In this document: in pieces, positions 2 through 29,917 of the stretch
Layout of the letters: each line of letters begins with the position of its first letter
Numbering within the stretch: the stretch's first letter is position 1
Assembly (NCBI GenBank): GCA_001769505.1
Contig: MEOF01000037.1
Location: 1 to 32,498 of the forward strand
DNA from: Bacteroidetes bacterium GWF2_33_38
Lineage (GTDB): Bacteria > Bacteroidota > Bacteroidia > Bacteroidales > GWF2-33-38
DNA length: 32,498 nucleotides
Direction: 5' to 3'
Notes under the pieces: model-generated
Database searches by the model: none
What the model was told of the DNA's origin: nothing
The model's input: only the letters and a program-made list of their open reading frames with translations
Program-made: the position numbers and the translations under genes

Positions 2-3000
2 ATTACATTTAACGATTCATTGGCAAGCGGCTTAAGTGCCGGCACCTACGATGTAACCGTAACCGATGTCATGGGAGCGAGCAATAGCATAAGCGTAACG
101 ATAGTAGAACCAACCGCCTTAGTAGCGAGCATAAGTGGAATAACCAGCACCGATTGTTTTGGAAGTAGTGATGGAAGCATCAGTGCAAGTGCCATAGGAG
201 GCACCTTACCATACAGCTATGCATGGCCAAGCGGAGCAGGAGCTACCTCAAGCGGATTAATATCAGGTACATATGAAGTCACGGTAACCGATGGTAATGG
301 ATGTACTTCAACCGCATCGGATTTTGTACCGGAACCGACCGACATAACCGCAAGCGTAACGACTACAGATGTGTTGTGTAACGGAGGAAATACAGGCTCT
401 GCAACGGTAATTGCAAGCGGAGGAACAGGAACCTTAGAATACTTGTGGGATGATGCCGATGCACAAGATGTTTCAACAGCATCAAATGTAATAGCTGGAA
501 CATATAATGTAATTGTAACCGATGCGAATGGTTGTACTGAAACAGCTTCGGGAGTTGTAGGCGAGCCCACAGTTTTATCAATATCGGTTTCATTGATAGA
601 CGATGTAAGTTGTAATGGCGGTTCTGACGGTCAAACAACGGTATCTGCTTCGGGAGGAATAAGCCCATATACGTATTCATGGGATGCAGGAAGCACTAAC
701 GACACCTTGTTAACAGCTATGGAAGGAACACAATTTGTTACTATTACCGATAGTAACTTATGTACAATTTCAGGTTCTGTTTTAGTTTCTGAACCTTTAC
801 AGCTTTCAACTTCGTTTGTTGTAACCGATGCTCATTGCGAATTAGCTGACGGAGAGCTTGAGGTAAATGTGGTTGGAGGAGTTACTCCTTATGTTTATGC
901 TTGGAGTAATGGACAATCAACCGATATAGCTTCAAGTATATTTGCAGGTACACACATTATAACTATAACAGATGCCAATTTATGTACTTTTGTTGATACT
1001 GCAACAGTTCTCGATTTACCGGGTGTTACATCTGTAATTTCAACAGTAAACAATGCAAATTGCTATGCTGCTTGTGATGGAACAGCTTTGGTTGTTGGTA
1101 GTGTTGGGGATATTCCTTATACATATTCATGGGATAATGGTCAAACAACAGCCTTGGCAACTGGCTTATGTGCTGGATCTTATTCTGTTACTGTAACCGA
1201 TGTTAATGGTTGTACTCACGATACCATTGCAATTGTTGGACAGCCCGATTCTGTTGATGTAAGCATTTCTGCAAGTACCGATGTGCTATGTTTTGGTCAG
1301 AACAATGGAACAGCAACAGCAACAACTATTGGAGGAACTTCGCCGTACAATTACGTATGGAATGGAGGAAGTACACCAACAGTAGCAACAACAACCGGAT
1401 TAATGGCTGGAACTTATTTTGTTACCGCAACCGATTCAAAAGGTTGTACCGATACAGCTTCGGTTAATATCTACGAACCAACAAGCATAGCTTTAGTAAT
1501 GTCAAGTGTTGATGAGAATTGTGGACAAGCAAATGGAGAGGGCTCTGTGCTTGTTTCTGGCGGAACTTCTCCATACTCATATAGTTGGAATGGAGGAACA
1601 ACTGCTACGTCTTCAACAACGATTGGTTTATCACAAGGAACATACACCGTAAATGTTACCGATGATAATGGTTGTACAGCAAGCAACACCGTTTCTATTA
1701 CAAATATTACTGCAGGAACAGCAAGCATATCCTCCTCTCAAGATGTTTCTTGTTTTGGTTTATGCGATGGCACTGCGGTGGTTTCAATAGGAGGTGGTGC
1801 AAGTCCATATAGTTATTCATGGAGCAGTGGTTCAACAACCACAACCGCAAGTAATTTATGTGCAGGAGACTATGATGTAAGCATTACCGATGCAAACAAT
1901 TGTATAGTCATTGTTGATGTTACTATTTCAGCACCAAGTCAGTTAAGTGTAAGTTTGAACTCTGACCAAGTAACCTGTTTTGGAGGAAGTGATGGTTCTG
2001 CAGAAGCAATTCCATCTGGAGGAGAATCTCCATATACTTATCAATGGGACGATTTATTGTTACAAACAACACAAACTGCTTCTGGGTTAATGATAGGAAC
2101 ATATCACGTAACCGTTGAAGATGACAATGGTTGTGAAGTATATGATGAAGTTACATTGGTACAACCACCGAAAATTACTTTCTCTGATATTGTTTCAGAT
2201 GCAAGTTGTGGACAAGCTGATGGAGCAATTGATTTAACGGTTACCGGAGGAGTTGCTCCATACGTTTACAGTTGGAACAATGGAGTTTATAGCACACAGG
2301 ATATTACCAATATCGTTGCAGGTACATACACTGTTTCTATTATTGATAACAAAAACTGCAGAGAGGACACAACTATTCAGGTTAATAATATCTTAGGCCC
2401 GACAGTTACAATTTCTTCATTTACAAATGCAAGTTGTAATGGGGTTTGTGATGGAACGGCTACGGTATCTGTATCTCAGGGAACATCACCATTCTCTTAT
2501 GAATGGGATAATTCTCAAGTATCTACAATTGCAACAAATCTATGTGACGGCTTACATTCTGTTACGGTTACTGATGCTAACGGCTGCGAAGCATCTGCTT
2601 CAAAAACCATTACCGAACCATTTGCTATTGCTCTGTCAACATCGTTTACTGAACCGTTGTGTAACGATAGTTGTAATGGATCTGCAAGTGTTATTTCGGT
2701 CGGAGGAACTTCTCCTTACTCTTATCAATGGGACGGAAGTTCTGATACAACGAGTACTGTTAGGGATATGTGTTCAGGAACTTACTATGTAACGGTTACC
2801 GATAGCCATGGTTGCGAAGAAATAGCCGATGTCGTAATTTCACAACCTACTATTTTAACTTTTGATATTAGTTCTGTTAAAACATTCTGTTATGGTTCAT
2901 GCGATGGAACGGCAACGGTATCTCCTTACGGAGGAACAGCTCCTTACACACAAGAATGGCAAGGTGGTCAGACCTCAATTACAGCTATAGGATTGTGTGC

Positions 3001-6000
3001 AGGAATGGTAGATGTAACGGTAACTGACGATAATGGTTGTACGGTTTCAGGAGATGTGGAGGTATTATCGCCGACTCAATTGGTTGTTTCAATCGACAAC
3101 TTTCAACATGTTGATTGTTATGGAGATTCTTCGGGTTATGCCGTTCCTACTATCAATGGAGGAACACCAGGATATTCGTATTCGTGGAGCAATTCAACAA
3201 GTTCGGGTTCGTTGTTAGATATTAGTGCAGGCTTGTACAATTTAACCGTAACGGATTCTAAATTATGTCAAGATACAGCAAGTGTATTGATAACTCAACC
3301 GCCTGTTCTAAACATTACGTTATTCTCAGTTGATGAAACTTGTTATGAATACGAAGACGGTTCGATAAACTCAACTATTACAGGAGGAGTATTGCCATAT
3401 AGTTATGCTTGGTCAACAGCTCAAGGAACCGAAGATGTTGCCGATTTGGCTTGTGGTACATATATTTTGACAGTAATTGATGCAAATGGATGTAGAAAAG
3501 TAGCTCGAGATACAATCTTGTGTGCGAACCAACTTATCGTTAGCGAGCAATCGGTAACACCTGCGAATTGTGGATTGGCAACAGGAGGAGCTCAAGTTGG
3601 AGTCATTGGTGGAGAACTTCCTTATACATCATCCATGTGGGAAACAGGAACTACAGGAACGATACTTAGTTATGTTGCATCAGGTCAATATACCTTTACG
3701 GTAGTAGATGCCAAAGGTTGTGTTGATTCGTTGGTTGTCGGAATTAATGACTTAGAAGCTCCTTATATTACTTTATTGGACCCAACAGATGTTTTATGTA
3801 ATGGCGACAGTGATGGTTCTATAAACATGGAATTCGCACAAGCTATTATAGATGCTCCATTTGAAATTGAGTGGTCAACAAGCTTTATCGAAACAGTTAC
3901 AAATCCAATGAGTTCAAGCATTTCCGCTTTATCGGCTACTGAGTATTTCGTAACCATTACCGATGCAAGTGGTTGCCATGAGTATGGTAATGTTGTAGTA
4001 TCTGAACCCGCTCAGTTGCATGCTATTGCTAACAGTATTATTCCAGCAACATGTAACGGATATTCCGATGGTCAAATTAATATTATTACTGCCGGAGGAA
4101 CACCTGCATATTCATATTTATGGACTAATGGAAATCTAACATCGCATCCAAATAATTTATCGGCAAACTTTACTCAATTTGTAACGATTACCGATGCAAA
4201 TGGATGTCAAATAATATTGGATACCATTATTCCGCAACCCGACCCACTTACAATGACTGCTACAGTTGTTGATGCATTGTGTTATGGTTCAGATGAAGGA
4301 AGTAGTATTGATATTTCGGCTGTGGGAGGGAATGGTATTTTCACTTACAACTGGAATCCTTCACAAGGAAGTACTGAGCCTGTTTACAATGTTATGGCTG
4401 GTGATTATTATGTAACTGTAACCGACCATAAAGGTTGTAGAGCCGATGATATGTTCACAGTTGGCGAGCCAACACAGATTCAGCTCACTACTGATAATAT
4501 ACCAACAACTTGTAAATTAAACAACGGAACTGCTATTGTCAATGCACTTGGAGGAACCGGGACTCATTATTCGTATAGTTGGATTCCTAACTTAGGAGCA
4601 TATGAAAATGAAATGGATAGCGTTACCGAAGGTTGGTATAATGTAGTGGTGTACGACGAAAACAATTGTAGTGAAAGCACACAAGTGAAAGTTGATATGG
4701 TGCCTCTACCAGTAATCGAATCAGTTGTAATTACCGATGCAACATGTAATGGCTACGATGACGGGTTTGTTGTTGTGAATCCAAGCTTTGGAACTCATCC
4801 AAGCTCATACACCTTAAATCCAGTTTCTGCTACTGAATATTGGTTGTCTGATTCGGCATATACATTTACTGGCTTAATCGCTGGTCAGTACGTTACTACA
4901 TTGATTGATGTTAATGGTTGCGAAGTTCAACGAACATTTGATGTCGATGAACCAAATGCAATTACAGCTTTTGTTAGTGGAGGAAACAACACGCTTTGTA
5001 TAGGTCAGCAAATACAGTTATCTGCTTATGGTTTGGGCGGAACACCTGACCCATTAAATGGATATAATTATGAGTGGACTACTTTTGGAGAACCAAGTGT
5101 AATTTCTCAAAATTATATACTTGAAGCAAAAGATACCGTTACATATCAAGTATTGATTTCAGACATGAATCATTGCGAAGGCTCGACATCGATAACCGTG
5201 AACGTATTTCCTGAAATTACAATTGAAGTGTCGCCATCTGATACAACTATTTGTCAAGGCGAAACCATAACATTGATTGTTGATGCCGATGGTGGAGACG
5301 GAAGCTCGTATTCATATTATTGGACCGATTTAGGTGTCCCAACATCTATGTTCAGTCGGGTAGTGAGTCCAGTTGTAGGAACAACATATTTTGTTTCGGT
5401 AACTGACGAGTGCAATTCTCCAAGCGATACTTTTGCAGTAAATGTTAATGTTCATCCTATTCCGCAATTACAGTTGGTAGGAGACACAATCGCATCTTGT
5501 CCACCGTTGACGACTACGTTTAGTAATTTGTTTAACGATTCGACATATACTTATGAGTGGAATTTCGGTGATGGTTCTTCAGATGATACTTCAGAAGAGA
5601 TAGCTCCTTCACACGAATTTCTATACACTGGAACTTATAGTGTTTATGTTACGGTAACCGATACAACTTCTGGTTGTTATTACGAAACGGTTTACAGCGA
5701 TTATATTGAAGTTTACCCAGAACCAATCGCAGCTATGTATATTTATCCAAGCACGGTAAATGTATTCGACGGGGGTGTAAATTTCTACAACGAATCAATC
5801 GGTTCTGATGCCGTAGTTTGGAATTTTGGAGATAACGAAGTTTCAACAATCGAAAATCCAGAACATCAATATACGCAACCTGGAGAATTTGAAGTATTGT
5901 TAACAGCTATGACACAGCAAGGTTGTTTGGATACTGTAGTTGGCAACGTAATTGTAAACGAAGGCTTTACATTTTATGCACCAAATGCATTTACACCTGA

Positions 6001-6277
6001 AAGCAATAGGAATGATTATTTCTTCTTTAAAGGAATTGGTATAGACCCAGATAATTTCTATTATGCTGTTTATGACCGTTGGGGCGAGTTAATTTTCGAA
6101 ACCGATGTCTTCTACAACCCAGAATCAGGATATACCGACGTCAAAGGAGCTTGGGACGGAACGGTTCACAATTCAGGAGCATTAGTAGAGATGGGAGTTT
6201 ATACTTGGCGAGTGGTATTAAAAGAAGTTACAGGTAAATCGCATGAAATCGCAGGAACTGTAACCGTAATCAGATAA
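2..6277 (+). CDS. SprB-repeat giant cell-surface adhesin, C-terminal part (5' end outside window)
   Basis: The frame is open to the left edge, so the gene is 5'-truncated by the window. The TTG at 20 is not a credible start: it lies inside a repeat and there is no signal peptide. After one partial repeat I count about 21 SprB-type repeats of roughly 75 residues (Cys-x-Gly-x-x-Asp-Gly, then Gly-Gly-x-x-Pro-Tyr-x-Tyr-x-Trp, then Gly-x-Tyr-x-Val-Thr-x-x-Asp-x-x-Gly-Cys). From about nt 4975 there are two Ig-like segments, then two PKD-like domains (WNFGDGSS near 5560, WNFGDNEV near 5820), then a CHU_C/gliding-motility C-terminal domain (from about 5965; APNAFTPESNRND, YDRWGELIF, GVYTWRV). In known proteins that last domain directs export by the type IX system (type B sorting). 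Likely role: surface adhesion or gliding, by analogy with SprB. Substrate unknown. Confidence 0.92.
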   Translation: MTFNDSLASGLSAGTYDVTVTDVMGASNSISVTIVEPTALVASISGITSTDCFGSSDGSISASAIGGTLPYSYAWPSGAGATSSGLISGTYEVTVTDGNGCTSTASDFVPEPTDITASVTTTDVLCNGGNTGSATVIASGGTGTLEYLWDDADAQDVSTASNVIAGTYNVIVTDANGCTETASGVVGEPTVLSISVSLIDDVSCNGGSDGQTTVSASGGISPYTYSWDAGSTNDTLLTAMEGTQFVTITDSNLCTISGSVLVSEPLQLSTSFVVTDAHCELADGELEVNVVGGVTPYVYAWSNGQSTDIASSIFAGTHIITITDANLCTFVDTATVLDLPGVTSVISTVNNANCYAACDGTALVVGSVGDIPYTYSWDNGQTTALATGLCAGSYSVTVTDVNGCTHDTIAIVGQPDSVDVSISASTDVLCFGQNNGTATATTIGGTSPYNYVWNGGSTPTVATTTGLMAGTYFVTATDSKGCTDTASVNIYEPTSIALVMSSVDENCGQANGEGSVLVSGGTSPYSYSWNGGTTATSSTTIGLSQGTYTVNVTDDNGCTASNTVSITNITAGTASISSSQDVSCFGLCDGTAVVSIGGGASPYSYSWSSGSTTTTASNLCAGDYDVSITDANNCIVIVDVTISAPSQLSVSLNSDQVTCFGGSDGSAEAIPSGGESPYTYQWDDLLLQTTQTASGLMIGTYHVTVEDDNGCEVYDEVTLVQPPKITFSDIVSDASCGQADGAIDLTVTGGVAPYVYSWNNGVYSTQDITNIVAGTYTVSIIDNKNCREDTTIQVNNILGPTVTISSFTNASCNGVCDGTATVSVSQGTSPFSYEWDNSQVSTIATNLCDGLHSVTVTDANGCEASASKTITEPFAIALSTSFTEPLCNDSCNGSASVISVGGTSPYSYQWDGSSDTTSTVRDMCSGTYYVTVTDSHGCEEIADVVISQPTILTFDISSVKTFCYGSCDGTATVSPYGGTAPYTQEWQGGQTSITAIGLCAGMVDVTVTDDNGCTVSGDVEVLSPTQLVVSIDNFQHVDCYGDSSGYAVPTINGGTPGYSYSWSNSTSSGSLLDISAGLYNLTVTDSKLCQDTASVLITQPPVLNITLFSVDETCYEYEDGSINSTITGGVLPYSYAWSTAQGTEDVADLACGTYILTVIDANGCRKVARDTILCANQLIVSEQSVTPANCGLATGGAQVGVIGGELPYTSSMWETGTTGTILSYVASGQYTFTVVDAKGCVDSLVVGINDLEAPYITLLDPTDVLCNGDSDGSINMEFAQAIIDAPFEIEWSTSFIETVTNPMSSSISALSATEYFVTITDASGCHEYGNVVVSEPAQLHAIANSIIPATCNGYSDGQINIITAGGTPAYSYLWTNGNLTSHPNNLSANFTQFVTITDANGCQIILDTIIPQPDPLTMTATVVDALCYGSDEGSSIDISAVGGNGIFTYNWNPSQGSTEPVYNVMAGDYYVTVTDHKGCRADDMFTVGEPTQIQLTTDNIPTTCKLNNGTAIVNALGGTGTHYSYSWIPNLGAYENEMDSVTEGWYNVVVYDENNCSESTQVKVDMVPLPVIESVVITDATCNGYDDGFVVVNPSFGTHPSSYTLNPVSATEYWLSDSAYTFTGLIAGQYVTTLIDVNGCEVQRTFDVDEPNAITAFVSGGNNTLCIGQQIQLSAYGLGGTPDPLNGYNYEWTTFGEPSVISQNYILEAKDTVTYQVLISDMNHCEGSTSITVNVFPEITIEVSPSDTTICQGETITLIVDADGGDGSSYSYYWTDLGVPTSMFSRVVSPVVGTTYFVSVTDECNSPSDTFAVNVNVHPIPQLQLVGDTIASCPPLTTTFSNLFNDSTYTYEWNFGDGSSDDTSEEIAPSHEFLYTGTYSVYVTVTDTTSGCYYETVYSDYIEVYPEPIAAMYIYPSTVNVFDGGVNFYNESIGSDAVVWNFGDNEVSTIENPEHQYTQPGEFEVLLTAMTQQGCLDTVVGNVIVNEGFTFYAPNAFTPESNRNDYFFFKGIGIDPDNFYYAVYDRWGELIFETDVFYNPESGYTDVKGAWDGTVHNSGALVEMGVYTWRVVLKEVTGKSHEIAGTVTVIR

Positions 6278-12511: not shown

Positions 12512-12696
12512 GTCTTTCAGTATATACTCAAATTAATTAGAAACCCGAAAAATTTGTTTATTTGCATATTTGTTGATAATCAGATAAACAAATTCCCCAA
12601 TAACCAAAAATAAAACCGAAACGCAATTTGCAAAGAGTACATTAAAGTAATTTTTTTTAAGTTGCTTCTTAAAAAAAGAGAAATTGCCTGCGATTA

Positions 12697-12840
12697 TACC
12701 AATTCTATTTCTATATGACACATATGTGATTTTTTAGATTCCCTTTTTCAAGGGAATGTGCCTCAAAAAATTATCACATACTCGCAAAAGCGGGTGTCTT
12801 ATTTTTAAATTGCGTCGGTCACATTGAATCGTAATTGGGA
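12697..12840 (+). mobile_element. MITE-like element, copy A (144 bp)
   Basis: Left end TACCAATT (12697-12704), right end AATTGGGA (12833-12840, one mismatch to the inverted left end). Flanked by TTA on both sides (12694-12696 and 12841-12843), as expected of a target-site duplication. The core matches copies at 18744 and 29666; against the 18744 copy I count five substitutions up to the GTAAT near the right end. Non-coding; internal hairpins as described for the 18744 copy. Confidence 0.85.
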
Positions 12841-12877
12841 TTAATCCGTTTATGAAAAATCATAATCATAATTATAT

Positions 12878-18585: not shown

Positions 18586-18743
18586 TTTTCCTTGTGTAGC
18601 AATTTGCTTTGATTTTCTGAACATTATTAGGGAAATCTAATCTTTTTTATCACTAAACGCATTGATATTTTCAAGCTTAGACTCTTATTCGATGTCTCTG
18701 TATTAACTTCAAACCTGAAAAATTGCGTCTTTTTTTGAAATCA

Positions 18744-18887
18744 TACCAATTCTATTTCCATATGACACATATGTGATTTTTTAGATTCCCTTTTTCAAGG
18801 GAATGTGCCTCAAAAAATTACCACATACCCGCAAAAGCGGGTATCTTATTTTTAAATTGTGTCGGTCACATTGAATCGTAATAGGTG
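18744..18887 (+). mobile_element. MITE-like element, copy B (144 bp)
   Basis: Left end TACCAATT (18744-18751), right end AATAGGTG (18880-18887, two mismatches to AATTGGTA). Flanked by TCA on both sides (18741-18743, 18888-18890). Internal structure, shared by all copies: palindrome CACATATGTG (18766-18775); hairpin ATTCCCTT/AAGGGAAT with loop TTTC (18785-18804); hairpin TACCCGC/GCGGGTA with loop AAAA (18826-18843). One substitution separates this copy from the 29666 copy across the core. Confidence 0.87.
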
Positions 18888-18971
18888 TCAAATCACCAAA
18901 AATAAAACCGAAGGGCTATTTATATTTGGCTTGATTTTTCTCATCGATTTTAAAATCTTATTCTTTTTGCT

Positions 18972-19003: not shown

Positions 19004-22000
19004 ATGAGAACAAAATTACTTCTTTTATCAATGCTTATTTCCATAAATTTATTTTCGCAAAACGAAGATTACGATTTTGCATATAGAGCCGAATCCGAAG
19101 GATATTTCACAAATCTTGCACAAAGTTCAAAAGGTCTTGTGTATACCGACAATTATGCTTCGAAACTATATTTGCTCGAAAATGGAGTTTCGCAAGTATT
19201 AGTTTCTTCGCCAGGTTGTGGTAGATACTACAACATTTCGCCCGATAAATCTAAAATAGGATACAAACATATTACCGAAACAGGACTCCAAGCTCCTGCT
19301 ATTTACGATTTGAATACTGGAGATATAAAGTTATTGCATCAACCCGTTAAACTTTGCGGGCAAGTATTTTTTGCCCAAAATGGAACTATTGTTTATACTA
19401 TCGGGACAAAACTTCAAATTTTACAAGATAAGAAAACAAAAGAAGTTGAACTTGGAATTTATGTAAATTATACGCCTATTTCGTCTGATGGAAAATATGT
19501 TGTTGTAAATTCAATCGACGATCAGCTTTCAATATTAAATCTTTCAAGCCTAGAGAAAATACAATTTACAAACAACCTAACTGGATATGTGTATCCTAAA
19601 TGGTCGCCCGATAACAAAAAAATTATGTTTTCATCACTAGATGGTAATTTATATGTGTTCGATTTGCTTGAAAATGCAACGTATGACTTAGGAAGGGGCG
19701 GAAACGCAAATTGGGATAATAACTCGAAAAAAATTTTATTTCAAGAAATATTTTCACAAGATTTTAAATTTTTAGGTTCTGAAATAGTTCGCATTAAATA
19801 TAATGGAACAGAAAAACATTACTTAACACAGACTCCTGAAATCAACGAAATGAATCCGATTATTGGAAACAATAATGAAATATTTTATCACACTTACAAT
19901 CAACGAAAACTTGTGAAAGCAAATCTTAACGCCGATAAATCGGGTCTACTTTCAGAAACGGTTTTGTTTCACGAATCCAATCCGCTTGAAATAGCGTTTT
20001 TCAACACAAATGCATATCAACAAACCAAAGACGAAGTTATCATTCGTATTCCAGGAGAGGTGCCATATGTTCATCAGGTTTATGACACTCCAACTTGGCA
20101 TGCCGGCTGGGGCTCATGTGCTCCAACAACATCGGTAATGGCATTTGCATATTTTAATCGCTTACCAAAATGGCCTACCGAAGTTGACCATGGTCAATCG
20201 TGGGATCCACATACAAACGACTATGGCTCATACGTTGCCGATAGATATCGTTTTCGTGAGGTTTATTACGAATCAACCGAAGATGCTTATGGAACAACTG
20301 CTTACGGCGGATATGGTTACATGTGGACAGGCTCTTATTCGCCAAATTCTCGTATGCGTCAATACATCGAAAACCATGGAATTACATCGAATCAGCTTTG
20401 GACATCAAGTTGTACATATTCATATACCACAACAGAAATTGATTTAGGTTACCCACATCCGCTTTGTAATTATCTTACATCATCGGGGCATTTAACTCTT
20501 GCTATCGGATATTTTCAAGATCAACACACATTAGTATTCAACGATCCTTACGGAAATAAAAATACTCCGGGCTATCCTAGTTACGACGGGCAAGATTCAT
20601 ATTACGATTGGCCTGGCTATAGCAATGGATATCAAAATTTAGATAACGATGGAAGCCATGGAGGAATTGCATGGACAGTTCGTGCCCGCACTACTGAAAA
20701 GGCTTATAACGACACCCTGATTGACGACAACGACTACGAACATGGGTTTTATATTCACAATCAAACCCCTTCGCACCAGCGATATTTTAGATCACAACTG
20801 ATTGGTTATGGTGGTCAGATGTGGTGGACAGGTTCTATGTCAACAGGTTCAGATGTTTGCTATGTTACTTGGACTCCAACCTTGGACGAAGCCGCAGATT
20901 ATGAAGTATTTGCATATATTCCTTCCAATTATGCAACAGCACAAGATTGTCGATATAAAATTCATTTTAATGGAGGAGACACAACTGTAATTGTTGACCA
21001 AGGATTATATTCCGACGAGTGGGTTTCTTTAGGAATTTTCCCTTTTTTACAAGGACAAGAAAGCTCTGTTTATCTTGGCGACTATAATGGCTACGATGGC
21101 GAATATATGGCTTTTGATGCGATTAAGTTTAGTAAAATTCCAAACCAAATTCAATTTGAAGTTACAAATGTTTCATGTCATGGCGGTTCAGATGGGCAGG
21201 TTATAGTAAATATTGCAGGAGGACAATCTCCATATACTTATTCTTGGGATACAACAGGGACTCGTGATGGGTCAACAGTTATAAATGGCTTATCAGCAGG
21301 AACATATTCTGTAACTGTAACCGATGCAAATTTGCTTGAATATATTGCTTCTGTAACTGTTTTACAACCAGACCCTCTTGAAATTACTTTTTCAACATCC
21401 GACCCATTAACAATTGGAGGGAGCAATGGATACATTAATGTTACTGTAAATGGAGGTACTCCTCCTTACACTTACATATGGTCGAATGGAGAGATAACAC
21501 ATAATTTGATAACTCTAATGGCTGGATATTATGAATTGACTGTCATAGATATGAATGGTTGTCAGAAAATACAAGGCACTGAACTTTTTGATCCAACTTG
21601 CAACACTCCAAGTTCTTTGTTGGCGTCTGAAATTAGTCAATCTTCGGTAGAACTAAGTTGGAGCGACGAAAATACGGAATATGGATATCTTTTAATGTAT
21701 CAAATCGATGGAAGCTCTGAGTGGGACAGCCTTAATGTTAATACAAACAACAGTTTTTTAGCGGGTTTAGCAGTAAGCACTTTATACAATTGGCAAATTG
21801 CGAGCATTTGTAACAACGATACTTCGGTTTTTGCAACTTCAAATTTCACAACTTCGGCATTGTTGCCAAGCTATACCTCAACCGCTTGTATAGGAAAGTT
21901 TACCGATACTGGTGGCGAAAACAATTTGTACGACCACAACGAAGATTATACATTTACGATTGCACCAACAGGGGCTACTAAAATCAGCATTTCTTTTTCA

Positions 22001-27183: not shown

Positions 27184-27222
27184 AAGAGTGGTCGGAAGAA
27201 AAATCCGACCACTCTTTTTTTA
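27184..27222 (+). terminator. Rho-independent terminator of the exbB operon
   Basis: Perfect 13-bp stem AAGAGTGGTCGGA (27184-27196) / TCCGACCACTCTT (27204-27216), 7-nt loop, T-run. Confidence 0.95.
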
Positions 27223-27267
27223 TCCTATTTATCCATTATTCGGTCAATTTTTACAAAGGGTTCGTTA

Positions 27268-27390
27268 TACCAATTGCCAATAGTATAAAGATTAGAAATA
27301 AGCCTCTAACTTTGTTTAGCAGTAAATAAGCCTAAAATACAAATTTGCAATCAATTAATTATCAGTCGGTTATGCTTGAGTTAGATAGAT
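27268..27390 (+). repeat. 123-bp direct repeat, left copy
   Basis: Matches 27522-27644 over its whole length with four substitutions, all in a short stretch (about 27333-27350). Begins TACCAATTGCCAATAG and ends TTAGATAGAT. Confidence 0.95.
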
Positions 27391-27521
27391 TCTATTTCCA
27401 TAAGACACATATGTTATTTTTTAGATTCCCTTTTTCAAGCGAATGTGCCTCAAAAAATTACCACATACCCTCAAAAGCGGGTATCTTATTTTTAAATTGT
27501 GTCCGTCACATCGAATCGTAA
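27391..27521 (+). repeat. Core of the 144-bp MITE family, copy C, lacking both ends
   Basis: Follows the consensus from TCTATTTCCA to GAATCGTAA, with about six substitutions against the 18744 copy. One breaks the GGG of the first hairpin. The left end TACCAAT is replaced by the preceding 123-bp repeat (junction microhomology ATT). The right end is replaced by the next TACCAATT. It is the most diverged of the four copies compared with the 18744 copy. Confidence 0.85.
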
Positions 27522-27644
27522 TACCAATTGCCAATAGTATAAAGATTAGAAATAAGCCTCTAACTTTGTTTAGCAGTAAATAAGCCAAAAACACAAAATC
27601 GCAATCAATTAATTATCAGTCGGTTATGCTTGAGTTAGATAGAT
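27522..27644 (+). repeat. 123-bp direct repeat, right copy
   Basis: Second copy of the 27268-27390 unit, here continuing into the complete 251-bp element that ends at 27772. Confidence 0.95.
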
Positions 27645-28014
27645 TGTGTTTCAAAATGATTGTTAAAGAAATTTTGGAACAACAATGGTTAATGCCGATA
27701 TTAAAGCAAAACAAGCATACAGAACGATGTGAAAGTATGCGACATTTTGATGTTTAATCGGTATAATTGGTATTATTCGCACGATTCATCGAGTTGAATC
27801 AAAATCGCAAATATCTAAAAAACAACACGTTTTCATTTCGGCGATAGGAGAAATCTCAAACATGACCAAATTTTTCTGAAATACTTCTAGATGAAAATAC
27901 TATAAAACATTGATATATATAGATATTTCTTGTTTTTCCGATTTATTTGAATTTTCGAGCCCTTTTTTTATCAAAATAAAGAAGTAAATAATTTCTCAAT
28001 TTGAAATTCACATC

Positions 28015-29651: not shown

Positions 29652-29665
29652 ATGATATATTGTAA

Positions 29666-29809
29666 TACCAATTCTATTTCCATATGACACATATGTGATT
29701 TTTTAGATTCCCTTTTTTAAGGGAATGTGCCTCAAAAAATTACCACATACCCGCAAAAGCGGGTATCTTATTTTTAAATTGTGTCGGTCACATTGAATCG
29801 TAATTGTTA
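29666..29809 (+). mobile_element. MITE-like element, copy D (144 bp)
   Basis: Left end TACCAATT (29666-29673), right end AATTGTTA (29802-29809, two mismatches). Flanked by TAA on both sides (29663-29665, 29810-29812). Core almost identical to the 18744 copy, with one substitution in the loop/stem of the first hairpin. It sits 14 bp after the transporter terminator. Confidence 0.87.
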
Positions 29810-29917
29810 TAAAACACACATTGTGTATAGTGTTAAAATTCAATTAGTTCGTTGGTTAAAGCAATTGATGTTTATCAAAATACACTAAATTATTTTTCAG
29901 ATTCATTTTATAATTTC

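Follow-up and report, generated by a model that had tools for sequence, protein, structure and literature searches.

Putative gene-less transposable elements with TNA target duplications and a shared bipartite end in Bacteroidota

Element A and a nested composite in the window

The window, as we call the whole stretch of 32,498 nucleotides analysed here, opens with a large T9SS-type protein (20–6277) that contains 13 stretches of SprB repeats together with PKD domains and a CHU_C signal domain. Direct repeats at 624–2963 and at 21189 are likewise SprB-like tandem repeats. Further along, three copies of a repeat that we call element A lie on the forward strand at 12697–12840, 18744–18887 and 29666–29809. 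Each is 144 bp long, which reproduces the positions and the equal length given in the original prediction.

Each of these copies is bordered by its own 3-bp direct repeat of the form TNA. Copy 1 has TTA at 12694–12696 and 12841–12843, copy 2 has TCA at 18741–18743 and 18888–18890, and copy 3 has TAA at 29663–29665 and 29810–29812, so the flanks match within a copy and differ between copies, as had been claimed. The left end is TACCAATT in all three copies, while the right ends, AATTGGGA, AATAGGTG and AATTGTTA, are degraded versions of AATTGGTA; both observations agree with the prediction. An intact AATTGGTA terminates the consensus of A, built from 39 genome copies. The longest stop-free run of this consensus in any frame is 34 residues, in keeping with the earlier statement that no protein is encoded. 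A 31-bp repeat (AATAACCAAAAATAAAACCGAA...), 87% identical between its occurrences at 12599–12629 and 18891–18921, adjoins two of the A copies.

A fourth copy of A is found in the window within a composite element at 27268–27772 on the forward strand. Here a second module, B, is joined to A, and the resulting B-A element measures 260 bp without an insert that interrupts it. The composite is framed by an outer TTA at 27265–27267 and 27773–27775. Its right end is broken at GAATCG-TAA by a 242-bp element at 27522–27763, also on the forward strand, and TAA is present on the far side too (target duplications at 27519–27521 and 27764–27766). This nested element is itself a composite, of B and a third family, C, and its C part belongs to the putative dimer family found across Bacteroidota. 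The original prediction contained neither the fourth copy nor modules C and B, the composites, the bipartite end or the spread in Bacteroidota that are described below.

When the sides of 27522–27763 are rejoined with a single TAA, they read GAATCGTAATTGGTA, the consensus end of A, followed by TTA. Judged from this reconstruction, the nested insertion preserves an empty site within the window. A second nested insertion is likely elsewhere in the genome, where it rests on contig ends: the last features of contig C48 are, in order, A, TTA and B, and those at the start of contig C66 are the end of C, TTA and the remainder of A. The partner of C66 is uncertain because contig C4 also ends in an A copy at the same TTA.

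Copies, target duplications and composites across the genome

The genome of origin comprises 3.93 Mb in 70 contigs. A BLAST search with copy 1 found at least 40 copies of A (the best 40 of 73 candidates), and a 21-base core of A gave 43 matches at up to three mismatches, against none for the reversed pattern. Together the two lists contain at least 45 copies or pieces of A, of which 38 are common to both, two come from BLAST only and five from the core scan only. Base-by-base inspection covered 43 of the 45, omitting those on C4 and C48, which are split or cut by a contig end. Both ends are present in 32, referred to as simple copies; the 11 set aside comprise eight B-module composites and three copies in which one end is lost or decayed (L037, L039 and L132). 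The 8-bp terminal inverted repeats TACCAATT/AATTGGTA are both perfect in 17 of the 32 simple copies, with the left end perfect in 29 and the right end in 20.

Matching TNA flanks, proposed earlier as a genome-wide check, are identical in 27 of the 32 simple copies. Shuffling the right flanks gave a mean of 9.1 identical pairs and a best of 20 in 100,000 shuffles. The matched copies carry TAA (10), TTA (9), TGA (5) or TCA (3), covering all four middle bases, and the five unequal pairs are TAA/TTA (twice), TAA/TCA, TAA/AGC and TTA/TGA. The duplication is exactly 3 bp long, because the three flank positions agree in 31, 27 and 31 of the 32 copies and the neighbours outside them in only 11 on either side. 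Identity between flanks drops to background just beyond these 3 bp, and homology among the copies ends exactly at TACC and GGTA. Placement is strongly biased: only one of the 43 inspected copies overlaps an open reading frame of at least 100 residues and the other 42 are intergenic, whereas 644 of 734 random points from the same stretches fall in such frames. Forty copies have a neighbouring gene on each side; the two genes are convergent for 14 copies, on the same strand for 22 and divergent for four.

Family C is 126 bp long (TACCAATTGTG...TTTAATCGGTA) and has ends of the form TACCRATT-N4-WTCAAAATG. Its flanks are equal in six of seven solo copies (the exception is L045), in a shortened copy of 84 bp (L062) and in all three B-C composites. 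Equal outer flanks are also present in four of the seven B-A composites, those of L053, L057 and L067 being unequal. On the evidence of these flanks, B-A and B-C composites transposed whole, generating duplications of their own at the outer ends, and C follows the target rule of A and has the same kind of end.

Module B (TACCAATTGCC...GATAG) occurs at 16 places in the genome. All 14 B arms with a visible right side show the junction GATAG-ATT, in one orientation. The partner at this junction is the left end of A in four cases, the right end of A in five, the left end of C in four and an unassigned sequence in one. Partner ends lose TACCA at the junction, and the bipartite motif at the left end of B is missing its inner part. 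None of the B places in this genome shows a solo B whose right end is intact. The sole B that is joined to neither A nor C (L056, C43:85392) is followed by ATTATTTTTTCATGC; it could be a solo B minus 6 bases or a B fused to a fourth element.

Folding with DNA parameters separates the three modules. A folds far better than its shuffles (z −4.86, none of 200 as good), and so does C (z −3.17, two of 200), whereas B folds no better than shuffled sequence (z +0.92). The stable folds of A and C, the position of 14 of 40 A copies between convergent genes and a terminator-like hairpin in A at 12778–12797 (one found, 0.3 expected) would suit intergenic or regulatory DNA (a terminator cassette or structured RNA, for example) that was duplicated and dispersed by recombination rather than by transposition. 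Against this origin, homology stops exactly at TACC/GGTA, every copy is bordered left and right by a TNA of its own, and where copies are nested, one interrupts the other by the same TNA rule. Rfam gave no match in the window, none at E ≤ 1 for 27200–27850 and, in 12 related loci, none that falls on an element. As the sole origin of the copies, recombination is refuted by the TNA duplications, and we consider it most improbable; the elements may nevertheless have a regulatory role in addition to being mobile. The constant junction of B raises a separate alternative, in which B would be not a fused MITE but a mobile element of its own, inserting site-specifically 3′ of TACCAATT in the single-stranded manner of IS200/IS605. 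B has no subterminal hairpins to match its lack of fold, and it occurs only behind TACCAATT of an element end and never elsewhere (29 matches), which makes such an origin quite improbable. The sole Rfam match in the related loci, a DUF805 RNA (RF03081) at L201:2143–2210, lies about 3 kb from the element and is unrelated to it.

The absence of genes, the inverted ends, the target duplications and the dispersed intergenic copies support the earlier reading of A as a product of transposition. We conclude, with a probability of roughly 93%, that element A is a non-autonomous transposon of the MITE type. The case is one of sequence comparison, movement itself having not been observed.

A bipartite end shared across Bacteroidota

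The ends of A and C can be aligned as TACCRATT, four free bases and WTCAAAATG. The inner motif is given here in its C form, from which A differs by two mismatches. In the GTDB collection, a scan with TNATACCRATTNNNNWTCAAAATG found at least 106 stretches, 80 of which were made into loci. By title, 73 of these loci belong to Bacteroidota (30 assemblies) and seven to other phyla. One of the seven, from a Chlorobiota MAG, contains an end pair with equal TNA as well as the central motif described below.

To count ends in whole genomes, we allowed up to two mismatches on both strands and used the reversed pattern as a control. The shared end is enriched in nine of ten other genomes, with 15 to 254 ends against 0–2 for the control. 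The counts (control in brackets) are 254 (0) in G065, 193 (0) in G064, 161 (1) in G063, 153 (2) in G067, 79 (1) in G062, 67 (2) in G066, 35 (2) in G060, 35 (0) in G068 and 15 (1) in G061; G069, with 3 (2), is not enriched. These ten genomes give no phylum-wide rate because they were selected for having matches.

In the 80 loci, 60 convergent pairs of ends lie 40–260 bp apart, against two divergent pairs. Pairs were called by the end motif alone, with up to three mismatches and no TNA demanded. The 3-bp flanks are identical in 47 of the 60 pairs (against a mean of 25.2 and a maximum of 40 in 20,000 shuffles), and TNA is present at the left flank of 58 and at the right flank of 57. Because the loci had been picked by TNA at one end, TNA is to be expected there, but agreement between the two ends does not follow from that choice. 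A separate pairing with TNA in the pattern gave equal flanks in 51 of 61, a figure biased by that requirement. At least one pair with equal flanks is present in 18 of the 21 assemblies that supplied the 60 pairs. Together, the enrichment and the equal flanks provide good support for a Bacteroidota-wide superfamily of elements defined by this end.

The two families differ in their distribution. C matches an element in the Bacteroidales MAG GH38 (L263) with 90% identity over 129 columns and one in a Prolixibacteraceae MAG (L197) with 79% over 126 columns, and has weaker matches in many others. In the same comparison A gave a single 26-base match; it is absent from 59 other genomes (two of the same family and 57 of the same order), and its exact 23-base end has no match in the GTDB collection. 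Judged by these matches, A looks specific to this lineage and C does not.

At the centre of C we observe AATGGT-TAA-TGCCGATA, which is close to the abutting ends AATTGGTA-TAA-TACCRATT, and each half of C folds as a separate hairpin. The central motif GGTTAATGCCGAT is present with up to one mismatch in 18 of the 60 elements and with two mismatches in 11 more, compared with none and three, respectively, of 1200 shuffled elements. It is found in 13 assemblies, and the sequence around it mostly retains the layout of an end. The 60 elements are not independent, because many come from few genomes. Smaller elements, of 53–76 bp, consist of one hairpin each, and some of them have equal TNA flanks. C and 29 of the 60 elements thus look like dimers, in which two hairpins would be joined via a decayed pair of ends; we infer this origin of C-type elements from the layout of their centre.

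Two further observations concern individual loci. In two Winogradskyella species (L153 and L178), an end-like TTATACCAATTCAACTTCAAAATG lies beside the same coding sequence, in the same place and without a clear partner end; it is possibly a chance match kept by descent. In G060, two contigs stop inside a shared-end MITE directly after TCATAGCCGTCAGG (L268 and L271), which suggests a further multi-copy insertion at this place.

The missing transposase and relation to known systems

Profiles PF01609, PF13359, PF13340 and PF13586 gave no match at E 0.001 in the genome that carries A. In the genomes of 13 relatives, mostly drafts, PF01609 (DDE_Tnp_1) has 52 matches; inspection of these with their flanks, some of which are cut by contig ends, found none with these ends and matching TNA. 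Four PF01609 loci have a loose end on both sides, none with matching TNA. One of them (L339) is an apparent IS in Labilibacter sediminis (G060:C1:168992–170585; L253:1002–2584) that is really a 158-bp MITE of the shared-end type. It is interrupted by an unrelated IS-like element, which has a 9-bp duplication and encodes a PF01609 transposase in open frames of 98 and 335 residues.

Longer end pairs were also considered as an autonomous partner and rejected. Six convergent pairs more than 260 bp apart are present in 113 stretches: one of 308 bp (L282) with equal flanks and five of 2.5–4.1 kb with unequal flanks. A 929-bp pair in L192 encloses a 241-residue open frame, but its flanks are TGA/TTA and its left end is already part of a 60-bp element. 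Pairs of ATACCAATT that might have framed an IS in the genome of A (C5:18238/19099 and C34:23466/23513) lie inside coding sequence and are attributed to chance; this pairing covered 100 of 178 places, on contigs up to C41. In viral contigs, five matches to the end of A have only 16–17 bases in common and are also attributed to chance, and two scans with the shared end gave 0 and 41 matches, none with a matching partner end. Neither A nor C matched plasmids or phages.

The TNA rule points to relatives of IS5 as a candidate source of the partner transposase. A 3-bp TNA duplication is a hallmark of the IS1031 group of IS5, and A has it. An IS5-family enzyme of the IS1031 or ISL2 type, related to PIF/Harbinger, may therefore move these elements, its IS being lost or missing from the assembly; a multi-copy IS could have dropped out because the assembly has 70 contigs, several of which end inside these repeats. 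The four profiles searched cover IS5-type transposases and found none in the genome of A, and PF01609 is without a match in G061 (15 ends) and G066 (67 ends). In the available text of PMC4482050, moreover, the target of bacterial IS5 is ANT and not TNA, while NuwaII inserts at TNA between C and G (C/TNA/G). On balance an IS5-type source is quite conceivable, if somewhat short of an even chance. A stand-alone, host-kept transposase without these ends, as in the pairing of REP with RAYT, would account for hundreds of ends per genome with no IS-length element bearing them in the 113 stretches or near the 52 transposase genes, and for the many elements that are small hairpins of 53–76 bp or two hairpins. 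The searches made identified no candidate gene for such an enzyme, and the missing IS may be an assembly artefact, most matches being from draft MAGs. RAYT elements are not known to leave a 3-bp duplication, in contrast to the clear TNA duplications observed here, and this second source seems unlikely. The broader account that we tentatively put forward, itself somewhat unlikely in all its parts, is that of an old Bacteroidota-wide superfamily of gene-less elements with TACCRATT-N4-WTCAAAATG ends and TNA targets. Its successful form would be a two-hairpin dimer whose inner ends decayed to AATGGT-TAA-TGCCGATA, with the outer ends alone being cut, and it would be moved by a transposase that is not carried on an element with the same ends.

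In our main reading of A and C, one transposase acting in trans would bind the bipartite end, that is, TACCRATT, four free bases and WTCAAAATG or a variant of it. It would cut at TACC/GGTA and join both ends to the target with a 3-bp stagger at TNA; a DDE enzyme making 3-bp staggered cuts would be the most likely type. Adjacent insertions with one TNA between them would create the palindrome ATTGGTA-TNA-TACCAAT of abutting ends. Where this palindrome was lost or decayed, the two elements could merge into a single longer one, mobilised through its outer ends, and a loss between the two ATT would leave the junction GATAG-ATT. Fusion of adjacent elements would explain the B-A and B-C composites, with their GATAG-ATT junction, as well as the dimeric C.

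The nested and fused copies illustrate stages in a possible growth of short mobile elements through joining. If the shared end holds, one simple pattern finds mobile repeats in many Bacteroidota genomes, with up to 254 ends in a genome of 3.1 Mb. Such repeats break assemblies and put hairpins between genes. Which enzyme moves gene-less elements that have no transposase-bearing relative at hand also becomes a testable question.

Among known systems, REP/REPIN sequences with RAYT resemble A and C in being short palindromic units, often paired, in many copies and with no linked transposase. A and C differ from them: their targets show clear duplications of 3 bp, and their TACCRATT ends are bipartite. 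The IS1031 group of IS5 shares with A a 3-bp duplication with a free middle base. The same is true of the ISL2 group and of the eukaryotic PIF/Harbinger elements, as far as the available text of PMC4482050 describes them. This likeness concerns the duplication, and no such transposase was found in our searches.

Literature searches found no paper naming these ends, a weak result in view of their scope (open-licence PMC texts) and of the noise matched by 8-letter strings such as TACCAATT. The prokaryotic MITEs covered in the consulted part of PMC10969869 are, like A, short and gene-free, with inverted ends, a target duplication and many intergenic copies; no named family there matches the A and C ends, the TNA rule or the composite and dimer build, and the elements described here have no known parental IS. 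Within Bacteroidota, the endosymbiont Cardinium carries MITECca01/02 in 169 copies of about 240 bp. According to the part of PMC9769881 at hand, this is likewise a MITE burst, mostly intergenic and also within other mobile elements. Unlike A, it derives from an IS982-family element in the same genome and is confined to one Cardinium lineage, and that part of the source mentions no TNA rule. BrickBuilt of Porphyromonas gingivalis is, as excerpted from PMC4596501, another Bacteroidota MITE without a transposase, but it has IS5-like ends (of the AAGACCTTTGCA type), a minisatellite and flanks of 2–7 bp that differ between copies. Set beside these systems, the A and C elements form a branch that is new and unnamed within a known kind of element.
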